From: Diplonema papillatum
Taxonomy: Eukaryota > Euglenozoa > Diplonemea > Diplonemida > Diplonemidae
NCBI GenBank assembly: GCA_030068145.1
Contig: JAPJBO010000724.1
Location: 52,928 to 116,927, forward strand
Direction: 5' to 3'
DNA: 64,000 nt
The position numbers and the translations under genes were made by a program. A model generated the notes under the pieces. The model was given only the letters and a program-made list of their open reading frames with translations. It did not search any database and had not been told where the DNA came from. Of this stretch, positions 1,765 through 12,592 are shown one piece after another. Position 1 is the first letter of the stretch; every line of letters begins with the position of its first letter.

Positions 1765-1875
1765 TCTCTCTCTCTCTCTCTCTCTCTCTCTCTCTCTCTC
1801 TCTCTCTCTCTCTCTCTCTCTCTCTCTCTCTCTCTCTCTCTCTCTCTCTCTCTCTCTTCTCTCTCTCTCTCTCTC
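1765..1875. repeat. (CT)n microsatellite 1
   Basis: About 110 bp of almost pure CT/TC with one TTCT interruption near 1857. It forms the left boundary of the retroelement chain. The long Arg-Glu minus-strand frames here are only the GA strand of the repeat. Confidence 0.97.
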
Positions 1876-2070
1876 GGGAAAGGTCAACGCGGTAGCGGTG
1901 ACCACGAGAACACATACAGGTAGGTGGGGAAAGGCCCTGGGACTGCTAAGGCGAGACTAACCCCGTCCCTGTCCCTCCCAGGGAGCCACCCCGGAACTAG
2001 CCTAGCCCACCTGACAGTGGGGGCCCACCTGACGGTGGAGGCCCACACCCTTTGACTTGTTTTGATGTGT
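1876..2070 (+). mobile_element. Solo A-B terminal unit of the E3 retroelement family
   Basis: Starts CGGGAAAGGTCAACG and ends TTTGATGTGTTCT, with a GC-rich middle. It matches the 3' A2-B2 unit of E3 (12381-12562) nearly base for base, apart from a short internal duplication around 2012-2030. No coding region remains. (CT)n lies directly on both sides. It most likely arose by recombination between repeats of a full element, or by insertion of a terminal unit alone. Confidence 0.75.
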
Positions 2071-2195
2071 TCTCTCTCTCTCTCTCTCTCTCTCTCTCTC
2101 TCTCTCTCTCTCTCTCTCTCTCTCTCTCTCTCTCTCTCTCTCTCTCTCTCTCTCTCTCTCTCTCTCTCTCTCTCTCTCTCTCTCTCTCTCTCTCT
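2071..2195. repeat. (CT)n microsatellite 2
   Basis: About 125 bp of uninterrupted TC dinucleotide between the solo unit and the 3' end of E1. Confidence 0.97.
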
Positions 2196-2451
2196 CGGAA
2201 AAGGTCGCGTTGGCAGAAACGGTGAAGATGATAATTGTCACAGGGTTGGTGAAATGAAAGCGAGAATGTGGGGTAAGCCCTGATTATTAGATTCACGGTT
2301 AAACGAAGCTAGCGCACAAGGTTTGCCTGATCTCGCACCTACTTTCCGATACCAAATAGATGCTCTATTCAAACTCGGAAAAGGTCGCGTTGGCAGAAAC
2401 GGTGAAGATGATAATTGTCACAGGGTTGGTGAAATGAAAGCGAGAATGTGG
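2194..2451 (-). repeat. E1 3' terminal array B1-A2-B2
   Basis: B1 (2374-2451) and B2 (2194-2271) are 78-bp near-identical direct copies starting CTCGGAAAAGGTCGCG. A2 (2252-2376) lies between them and repeats A1 at 5757-5881. A and B share about 20 bp of overlap (AAATGAAAGCGAGAATGTGG). This matches the split direct repeats of PAT/Ngaro-like elements, which template a circular intermediate. Confidence 0.88.
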
Positions 2452-2563
2452 AATAAAAATCCCTGGACGTGAAACTCAAAGAGCTGAGATCCCGCTGCCT
2501 CCGGGTCTCGCAAAGAATAGCGCTATCAGGAGCGCAAATACAAAACTTCCGAGGTAAAGATCC

Positions 2564-10489: not shown

Positions 10490-10566
10490 GGGAAAGGTCA
10501 ACGCGGTAGCGGTGACCACGAGAACACATACAGGTGGGTGGGGAGAGGCACTGGGACTGCTAAGGC

Positions 10567-12374
10567 GTGACTAACCGCCTTACTGCTCTCGGGACTCCGA
10601 ATGGTAGGGTTGGAATGGCGGTGACATGGACGCGCGCGTGGTGGAGATGGACGGGAGGGCCCACAACCCGTCCGGTGGAGCGCGTGGTGCGGGTGGACGG
10701 CCGCAGTCGGGCGGACGAGCCGGGCGGCGAGCGGCAGGCCTTCGGTCGCTGGGTGAAGCGGCCGAGAGTGGACGGGGGCAAGCGTCGCGGGGACGGGTGC
10801 GACCGCCGTTCGCTCTCGCCGACGTGGGTACTCGCCGTTGGGTGCCCGCAGCCGGCCGGTCGCGGTGGCCGTGGAGTCGGAGTGGGTCGGGATGCGTCGC
10901 GCCTTGCAGGGCTGCAGAGGCGGCTGCAGGGCATCGCGGGCGGGCTGGCGGTGTACGACGAAGCCCCGGACAACGTGTCCAGCTCGACCTACTCGTCGAC
11001 GCCCTCACTTCCAGGGTGTCGAGTGGCTCCGGGTATGCGGGCGGACGCGGGGCTCCCTCTGGCGAGGGTAACGTCGAACCGCGTCGACCTGCGCGCGTTG
11101 GCGGCGATGGACGGTGTCGGTCGATTCCGCGAGGTGCTGCCGATGTTGATGGATCCGGTAGCGTTTGCGGAGGCTTTCGTGTCTGGGGACGCCGCAGGCG
11201 GGTGCCGGGTGCCGTCGCGCGGGATGGAGCGACACCGGGCGACTCTGCGGTCGTGCGGGGTGGCGAGCGACGCACGTTCGCGGCCGGCATTCGCCATGAA
11301 GGCCTTCACGACGCCGAAGAAGGACGGACGAACGGCACGTCTCGTTCTGGATGCCCGGCCGCTGAACGACGCGATGCGCCGGCCGCCCAGCATGGACCTA
11401 CCCAGGCTGCGCGACTTCATCGCCGAAGTCAAGAGGCACCGGTTCGCCATGCAGTGCGACGGCGTGTCGTACTTCTACCAGTTCCCCATAGACGCGAGCA
11501 TTTCGCGATATTTCGGGATTGGTATGAAGGGGTGCGACATGCTGTTGAACGTGCTGTGCATGGGGTGGTCTTGGGCGCCGTGCATTGCGCAGCGCGCGTC
11601 GAACGTGCTGGTGCGGGACTTGGGCTTGGCCTGGGTGGACAACTTCCTTGTCTTGGGCGGGACGTGGGATGAGGCGCAGCAGAACGTCGCCGTGTTTCGC
11701 GAGAGGACGCAGGCGGCGCGGGTCGAAGTGCGGGCGGAAGGCGGCGGCGCATTGTGGGAAGTTTGTTCGCGGTCCGTGTGCGTGGGGGTCGAGTTCGAGG
11801 CGGTCGCATGGTGGGTGCCGCAGCGCCGGTGTGGGACGAGGTCGTCGACGTTCCTCCGTCGGCGAGACGGGAGCTGGGCGTGCTCCGGAAGATCGTCCGG
11901 GAGAACCCGTGGGTCGTGGGCGGCGTCCCTGAGGACACAGGGAGCGTCCTGTGGACGGACGCCAGCTCGCGGGCGTGGGCGGCGCTGCTGGAGGCGGAAG
12001 GCCGGTTCGTGGACGGGCGGCAGGGCGTGTTCGCGGGACCGGACGCGGACGCCCACATCAACTTGAAGGAGATGTTGGCGTTCGCGGAAGGTGTGGTTCG
12101 GCTGTGCTGGGCGCCGGGGGCGCAGCGGTGCCGCATCGACAACGCGGCGGTTGTGGGCGCCGTGGCGAAGGGGAGTTCTTCCTCGTACGCCGCGAATCGC
12201 GTTTTGTCCCGGTCTCTTCGTGTTGCCGGGCGCAGAGGGATTGTCCTCCGCCCTGACTGGGTGCCGTCCGGCGGACAGCTGGCGGACCCGTACACGCGGG
12301 GGACCTCGTTGCCTCGGTTCCCGGCGCAACTTCCGCTCCCGCGGTCACGTGCCACACCCTTTGACTTGTTTTGA
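10567..12374 (+). pseudogene. E3 reverse transcriptase-RNase H, frameshifted
   Basis: RT-like sequence begins near 11080 (VDLRALAAMDGVGRFREVLP, similar to the E1 RT N-terminus). Motifs: LVLDARPLNDAM, QCDGVSYFYQFP (A), LCMGWSWAP (B), AWVDNFLVLG (C, where the second Asp is Asn). This frame continues to 12066 but loses similarity near 11820. RNase H goes on in the -1 frame to 12374 with LWTDASS, NLKEMLAFAEG, RIDNAAVV and QLADPYTRG. The RT is probably dead through the D to N change and the frameshift. The region 10567-11080 is open but unrecognisable. Confidence 0.78.
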
Positions 12375-12380
12375 TGTGTT

Positions 12381-12562
12381 CTCGGGAAAGGTCAACGCGG
12401 TAGCGGTGACCACGAGAACACATACAGGCGGGTGGGGAGAGGCCCTGGGACTGCTAAGGCGTGACTAACCCCGTCCCTGTCCCTCCCAGGGAGCCACCCC
12501 GGAACTAGCCTAGCCCACCTGACGGTGGGGGCCCGCACCCTTTGACTTGTTTTATGTGTTCT
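12381..12562 (+). repeat. E3 A2-B2 terminal unit
   Basis: Contains the A repeat (CTCGGGAAAGGTC... to GACTAACC), a GC-rich middle, then B2 ending TTTGACTTGTTTTATGTG. It matches the solo unit at 1876-2070, which shows that the solo copy is a derived terminal unit. Confidence 0.85.
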
Positions 12563-12592
12563 CTCTCTCTCTCTCTCTCTCTCTCTCTCTCT
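12561..12592. repeat. (CT)n microsatellite 5, right boundary of the chain
   Basis: 32 bp of CT, followed at 12593 by intron sequence homologous to copies B and C. Confidence 0.95.

Follow-up and report, generated by a model that had tools for sequence, protein, structure and literature searches.

A 64-kb stretch of the Diplonema papillatum genome (hereafter the window; part of contig C724) carries a tandemly triplicated gene whose protein product has ankyrin repeats and an ADP-ribosyltransferase-like match, and the first of the three copies houses a chain of mobile elements in which each member is bordered by (CT)n microsatellites. The analysis below concerns the way in which these elements, which are retroelements of the tyrosine recombinase (YR) type, come to lie in CT arrays. 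The host gene is represented by a long open reading frame (ORF) at 37218-43751, which encodes 2177 amino acids with ankyrin repeats and the ADP-ribosyltransferase-like match (PF01129), and database comparison finds a D. papillatum homologue with 50% identity. Homology to gene copy 2 (24414-26107 / 26350-27195) and gene copy 3 (41965-43748 / 44010-44671) flanks the gap that holds the chain, and comparison with these paralogues places both sides of the chain in one gene copy and in the correct order. This gap measures approximately 11 kb in copy 1 versus approximately 0.4 kb in copies 2 and 3, and its intron-like borders predict that it is removed by splicing. The proposal of an earlier note on this DNA that the chain lies inside one intron agrees with both paralogous copies, with splicing itself being presumed. 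Relative to copy 2, approximately 243 bp of host sequence is missing at the chain site in copy 1.

Between its CT arrays, the chain contains a solo unit and three longer elements termed E1, E2 and E3 (Table 1), whose positions in the earlier note proved correct to within a few bases. The window contains six runs of at least five CT units, each of which abuts the solo unit, E1, E2 or E3 at an outer end, in line with the earlier claim that every outer end meets CT. Outside the chain it has no CT run of this length, and no GA run of this length was found anywhere in it. The two orientations that had been reported are likewise present, with E1 coded on the minus strand and E2 and E3 on the plus strand, and the CT strand is identical for all of them. 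The accompanying assignment of the four units to families stands in so far as E1, E2 and E3 are diverged from one another; the solo unit belongs to the E3 family.

By sequence, E1, E2 and E3 are of the YR retroelement type, with direct repeats that are split and an architecture like that of VIPER or Ngaro. ORFs in E1 and E2 run in the order gag-like protein, tyrosine recombinase-like protein and reverse transcriptase (RT), and the repeats are arranged as A1-ORFs-B1A2B2. The RT profile RVT_1 of Pfam scores above its cut-off in E1 and E2 and below it in E3 and in a further element of the window, YR6. The R, R, H and Y columns of the recombinase are invariant across E1, E2 and YR6, and at the H-x-x-R motif E1 carries K where E2 and YR6 carry H. 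Neither YR nor gag was seen among the ORFs and Pfam matches of the window copy of E3, and the profile search gave no RNase H in E1, where this domain is placed by position only. No scanned ORF has a Pfam match to a methyltransferase, which is an absence of match only. A tandem repeat of 63 bp, present five times in E2 (window positions 6987-7300), forms part of ORF 6502-8373, the last portion of which is the YR.

The RT sequences of E1 and E2 are 29% identical, those of E1 and E3 30%, and identities to YR6 range from 24 to 28%, indicating that the four elements represent deeply diverged lineages. One annotated protein of D. papillatum, DIPPA_04535, matches the E2 RT at 99% identity across 45% of its length. 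In an RT tree of the window RTs, database relatives and Gypsy-like rows, the window RTs are separate from the Gypsy-like rows, and E2 clusters with database relatives rather than with E1, E3 and YR6. A single origin of CT targeting is not favored by the position of E2, but E3 and YR6 form long branches, the outgroups are poor, and the count of 'one change' for the four window rows leaves ungrouped rows out.

The earlier note had suggested that the elements repeatedly target the same kind of microsatellite, and that the flanks of other copies should reveal this. Such a tabulation, made on part of the copies in the genome assembly (271 Mb in 2910 contigs), favors targeting. We collected 110 loci (L001-L110) from the best-scoring copies only, and deduplicated their ends by contig position. 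The E2 A unit contributed 30 loci (40 scored of 456 candidates), the E2 B unit 30 loci (40 of 231), the E3 unit 30 loci (40 scored of 1599 candidates, with 42 full-length matches reported for the solo-type unit), and E1 20 stretches that hold 22 of the 42 perfect E1 units listed. Because the loci were drawn in this manner, the sample leans to young copies. Among 179 outer ends, 168 lie in tracts of at least five CT units, five are beside (CT)3-4, one is in (TTC)n and five are at other sequences, although the number of insertion events must be somewhat smaller than 179 because host flanks are common to C974 and C1916 and to C1561 and C1444. The preference for tracts of at least five units holds at the left and right ends, respectively, of E1 (35/38 and 12/15), E2 (26/27 and 33/34) and E3 (23/25 and 39/40), and both sides are of this kind in 29 of the 34 solo units for which both outer ends were read. 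None of the 179 outer ends of E1, E2 and E3 lies in (GA)n on the same strand, and therefore orientation relative to the CT strand is fixed.

A less selective view is available for E1, whose exact 26-mer end occurs 379 times genome-wide: 141 of these are internal junctions, 141 follow (CT)4C and 38 follow TC preceded by A, G or T. The dinucleotide TC precedes 345 of all 379 ends, and 204 of the 238 that are left after removal of the 141 exact junctions. The first 100 of the 379 ends in contig order, taken as a less biased sample, comprise 32 junctions and 68 outer ends, and of the latter 27 follow (CT)4C, seven more lie in CT tracts, five in (TTC)n, three in (TTGTTC)n, eight in other pyrimidine tracts and 18 at single-copy sites. 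These are program classes and are kept as such, although by eye L132 and L141, scored as other pyrimidine tracts, are CT arrays and L122 is TTC-rich; older or altered copies may also dilute the sample. E1 is selective for CT arrays but not exclusive, and in this respect is looser than had been claimed, with approximately half of its outer ends in CT tracts and TC as the most common shared feature. From the perspective of the arrays, 323 of the 1984 (TC)10 runs in the genome that are followed by a non-T base abut GGRAAAGGTC, which is the start of E1 and E3.

The earlier note had also recognized that CT might be part of the element ends themselves rather than host sequence, a possibility that can be judged from the internal B1/A2 junctions of full elements. 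These read CCCCCC-TCT-AAGC in E2, TGTGTT-CTC-GGG in E3 and, on the CT strand, TTCAAA-CTC-GGAAAAGG in E1. Among the collected loci, junctions have exactly this core length in 31 of 33 cases for E1, 12 of 13 for E2 and 21 of 21 for E3; on visual inspection one of the E2 rows, whose flank ends in CTCTTCCCCTCTCTCT, is an outer end, and the two non-exact E1 rows, with 1 and 3 extra CT units, may be either junctions or outer ends. The element-owned bases are a core of only 2-3 bp, CTC in E1 and E3 and TCT in E2. CT therefore belongs to the element for these 2-3 bases; beyond them it is ruled out as the element's own sequence by internal junctions that are hardly ever longer and by the TTC, TTGTTC and single-copy sites.

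Ten E1 right ends were fetched, and six were used (C12 and C376 are altered, C414 is an internal junction, and C8 has no end in the stretch). The six independent sites outside CT, each read at both ends, are C415 (L095), C42, C96 (with a duplicate in C2283), a hexamer repeat in C65, and TTC repeats in C14 and C157. At every one of these sites, TC closes the left flank and CTC opens the right one, after which the host sequence continues. The base before TC is the target's G or T on the left and the element's C on the right, and TC is the sole feature common to the crossovers, which argues that CT arrays, where they occur, are the target. The absence of an array at the single-copy sites, and the presence of TTGTTC or TTC repeats in the flanks at C65, C14 and C157, likewise assign the flank to the target. 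One locus (L108, C122:275690-276530) holds three head-to-tail copies of the 180-bp E1 unit beside an element, with CTC cores between them, as if units had recombined at the core.

The sequences directly show how the flanks are distributed, that orientation is fixed and that the core is short, together with the single-copy sites read at both ends, the paralogous empty sites described below, and the chains. We consider it likely that CT homing, orientation and chain formation all result from a circular intermediate that recombines at a TC core and prefers pyrimidine repeats. Specifically, reverse transcription would produce circular DNA whose outer ends are joined through the core, and the B1/A2 junction would keep a copy of this core between generations, following the model published for elements of this kind. 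A tyrosine recombinase, presumably the element's own or, for E3, that of a relative, would cross the core with a matching chromosomal TC and leave no longer target duplication. In a (CT)n array the core would recur with a period of two bases, and pyrimidine repeats are probably also favored by the enzyme or by a partner of it, with the result that (CT)n would receive most insertions and (TTC)n, (TTGTTC)n and single-copy sites a smaller number. The asymmetry of the core would impose one orientation per family. Furthermore, the CT left on both sides of each insertion would permit additional elements to follow, giving rise to chains of intact elements.

Several points weigh against this explanation. 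A bare TC core would not favor arrays by itself, and therefore an extra preference is needed; many adjacent cores, a pyrimidine-repeat-binding protein or chromatin may be its cause. The window copy of E3 has no YR of its own, and the PF00589 matches of E1, E2 and YR6 fall below the curated cut-off. Just 34 of the 68 outer ends in the less biased E1 sample are in CT tracts, with the 18 single-copy sites among the remainder, and 34 of the 379 E1 ends do not follow TC, some of them possibly in altered copies. This whole-genome census of ends covers E1 alone. The E2 core is imperfect, with AAGC preceded by CTAT in the window copy and by CTC in L028. Finally, array lengths may have changed after insertion, and long repeats may carry assembly errors.

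The landing arrays would often be the 3' tails of another repeat, called E5, which lies to the left of many arrays. In the copies seen, the 3' end of E5 (...CACTCTAACTCGTCT(CT)n) is constant, whereas its 5' ends vary and are flanked by non-CT sequence, and an E5 that itself targets CT is not favored by these characteristics. The putative E5 end in the window, ACTCCAACTCGTCT, also terminates E5 copies in L078 and L079, and a commoner form, ACTCTAACTCGTCTCTCTCT (the exact 20-base end with CT), has 2027 exact occurrences genome-wide. E5 looks like a 5'-truncated long interspersed nuclear element (LINE) with a (CT)n tail, a putative identity given that no coding part was found in it, and many CT arrays, here and at a number of other sites, look like tails of this kind.

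Alternatively, the arrays might grow after insertion at a short CT or a single TC, through repair or slippage, a process proposed for maize TAFTA MULEs (described in the excerpted text of PMC5907723). In favor of this view, E5 tails that have no YR element nearby can be short (for example, one in L070 and one in L062), and 5 of 179 outer ends have no more than (CT)3-4. However, there is no array at the E1 single-copy sites, TTC and TTGTTC sites are flanked by the target's own repeat rather than by CT, and expansion is very rare at internal junctions, which carry the same core. For these reasons we regard growth after insertion as an unlikely source of the arrays.

Insertion into existing arrays through a TC core agrees with the claim of the earlier note that elements are added repeatedly to a chain. 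Across their tracts, 97 of the 179 outer ends face an E1/E2/E3-type terminus, 17 face E5 and three face a repeat named E4, and the far side has no assigned repeat in 59 cases and lies beyond the fetched stretch in three; ends are counted here, such that a common tract counts twice. The 59 include visible variants of E2, E3 and E5 ends, and 97 of 179 is therefore a lower bound for chains. The pyrimidine tracts involved reach 329 bases. The E4/R7 repeat (L082; also L033, L066, L084, L091 and L098) is known from its termini alone, GAACTTCTTACC and GAAGTTCTTGATCC, and these meet CT tracts in most copies seen.

Chains could arise mainly by recombination between the CT arrays of different loci instead of by repeated insertion. 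Identical arrays are good substrates for such exchange, and tandem units do exist (L108). However, the junctions we read sit at an element terminus and share one orientation, the chain of the window has both of its ends in a single gene copy, correctly ordered, and exchange of this kind accounts for clustering but not for targeting. It is quite improbable as the principal origin of chains. It is even harder to accept that there is no targeting at all, and that elements insert at any TC with their survival skewed to CT-rich introns and intergenic DNA, a scheme that finds some comfort in the single-copy sites of E1 and in the exonic position of YR6. TC is expected approximately every 16 bases, whereas two boundary counts give only approximately 1500 or 2000 runs of at least 10 CT units for the 271-Mb assembly, and a tally of 168 out of 179 would demand the loss of nearly all other insertions. 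Misassembly at microsatellites is scarcely credible: tracts of such length are hard to assemble, and the L004 and L017 contigs end near an E2 unit, but the two sides of the chain lie in one gene copy in the correct order, the single-copy and TTC sites have matching flanks, and the published assembly combined long and short reads (as stated in the excerpted text of PMC10161547).

Gene copy 1 also contains YR6, another element of the YR type, which lies in a coding exon. The flanks of YR6 meet at window position 40155, the corresponding empty site in gene copy 3, with one mismatch on the left, and its GA core is the complement of TC. Tandem repeats of 51 bp lie between its YR and RT ORFs. An older left terminus resembling that of E3 is present in both copy 1 and copy 2, and its empty counterpart in copy 3, visible for the left side only, reads CCCGTTCTC directly followed by TCTTTCTCTG. 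Elsewhere in the window, a long array at 28640-29680 encodes an EPLESS-type repeat in one frame (from the ORF list), and two long LINE-like ORFs (RVT_1) at 53389-57711 and 57880-62733 end in C-terminal RLIDVAITFPL stretches, which are reminiscent of a restriction-like endonuclease.

Table 1. Features of the chain and of related insertions in gene copy 1 (window coordinates).
Feature	Position	Strand	Basis and details
Predicted intron of host gene copy 1, carrying the chain	1713..12711	+	CAG/GT and AG/ATC borders read from sequence; homology on both sides
Putative 3'-end remnant of E5 (LINE-like), directly before first CT array	1754..1764	+	Short match to ACTCCAACTCGTCT
(CT)n array	1765..1875	+	Sequence run
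Solo A2B2 unit, E3 family, 195 bp	1876..2070	+	Same unit as 12384-12560
(CT)n array	2071..2196	+	Sequence run
E1, YR-type retroelement, split direct repeats	2197..5878	-	180-bp query match pattern, sequence, ORFs, RVT_1; in plus-strand order: unit 2197-2373, core CTC 2374-2376, partial copy from 2377, ORFs, partial copy ending 5878
E1 RT (RNase H by position), part of ORF 2564-5188	2564..4288	-	PF00078 E 1.5e-8
E1 tyrosine-recombinase-like ORF	4303..4932	-	R61, R154, H175, Y184 common to E2 and YR6; PF00589 E 0.26
E1 gag-like ORF frame, weak C2HC zinc finger	4933..5892	-	PF13913 E 0.007, below cut-off; frame extends beyond element end
(CT)n array, reads CTAT directly before E2	5879..5896	+	Sequence run
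E2, YR-type retroelement	5897..10479	+	A1 5897-6122, ORFs, B1 10076-10177, core TCT 10178-10180, A2 from 10181, B2 10378-10479
E2 gag-like ORF	6062..6985	+	By position; no Pfam match
E2 tyrosine recombinase, end of ORF 6502-8373	7342..8373	+	PF00589 E 0.0008, below curated cut-off; conserved R, R, H, Y
E2 RT (RNase H by position)	8358..10115	+	PF00078 E 6.9e-19
Short (CT)n tract common to E2 and E3	10480..10489	+	Sequence run
E3, shortened element of E1/E2 kind	10490..12560	+	RT remnants only; core CTC 12381-12383, A2B2 12384-12560
(CT)n array, right edge of chain	12561..12592	+	Sequence run
Older E3-like left terminus	13396..13440	+	Present also in gene copy 2 (27148)
YR6, YR retroelement in coding exon	17430..22805	+	Core GA; outside any CT array; A1 17430-17574, gag with CCCH motif, YR, RT, B1 21998-22301, A2 22302-22445, B2 from 22505

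Compared by description, the closest precedent for the targeting is TATE, a YR retroelement found at one relative position in the telomeric repeats of Leishmania (PMC6681497; PMC12278014, both as excerpted). The excerpts describe a Euglenozoan element with A1-B1A2B2 repeats and gag-like, YR and RT/RNase H ORFs that occupies one position in a short tandem repeat. The target of TATE is a telomeric hexamer, whereas here it is an interstitial CT repeat that is shared by several diverged families in mixed chains, and no telomeric hexamer is among the E1, E2 and E3 flanks read (CT, TTC, TTGTTC, other pyrimidine and single-copy). VIPER and its solo unit SIRE, from Trypanosoma, share the architecture and the solo A2B2 units, but no microsatellite target is stated for them in the same excerpts. 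The VIPER/TATE order of gag-like protein, YR and RT/RNase H (excerpted text of PMC12278014) recurs in E1, E2 and YR6, with RNase H placed by position. Ngaro elements, for example in Cafeteria burkhardae, also have split direct repeats, solo AB units and type-dependent site choice; two of the C. burkhardae types prefer integrated virophages, and the excerpted text of PMC8547959 states no CT target. According to an excerpt of PMC4157794, the lack of a methyltransferase separates Ngaro/Viper from DIRS/PAT. For DIRS1-like elements, the published model has a circle junction of 3 bp recombining with the same sequence in the genome and producing no target duplication; the present observations fit this model, but DIRS1-like termini are inverted repeats and mostly NTT rather than CTC (PMC3266345, in the portion available). 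E2, E3 and YR6 carry direct repeats, not inverted terminal repeats with an internal complementary region.

SaTar/TAFTA MULEs are not known to have an RT or a YR, Kibi is a CT-specific non-LTR element, and microsatellite-specific non-LTR elements in general employ target-primed reverse transcription and are not known to use a YR or a circle. By description, SaTar MULEs come nearest to the present chains, with intact elements linked through microsatellites. In guayule, rice and maize, SaTar/TAFTA elements form modular chains of intact, unrelated members in this fashion, but are class II elements whose termini are inverted repeats and which duplicate 8-11 bp of target at sites outside repeats (excerpted text of PMC5907723), traits that are replaced here by direct repeats and a 2-bp common core. 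Microsatellite-specific non-LTR elements share with E1, E2 and E3 insertion in simple repeats (PMC4640811, as excerpted), and are distinguished from them by the split direct repeats and YR-like ORFs of the latter. No report of CT-targeting YR retroelements was found in the titles and abstract openings of the literature searched, and the words microsatellite, DIRS, dinucleotide and pyrimidine are absent from the main text of the D. papillatum genome paper (PMC10161547).

Little is known of how YR retroelements choose their sites. Here the rule is readable, namely a TC core, one orientation and a preference for pyrimidine repeats, because natural insertions are numerous, each full element preserves a record of the presumed circle junction, and single-copy exceptions and paralogous empty sites are available. 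We tentatively raise the possibility that these deeply diverged YR retroelements constitute a guild that has the same 2-3 base address (TC/CTC) in its B1/A2 junctions, inherits it through them, and uses the (CT)n tails of E5 as renewable landing pads. If this is true, a changed B1/A2 junction would bring a changed target, and the address would be a heritable, minimal and self-encoded code. Targeting of this kind offers mobile elements a way to pile up without breaking each other or exons. It may also be one route by which diplonemid introns grow, in this instance from approximately 0.4 to 11 kb.

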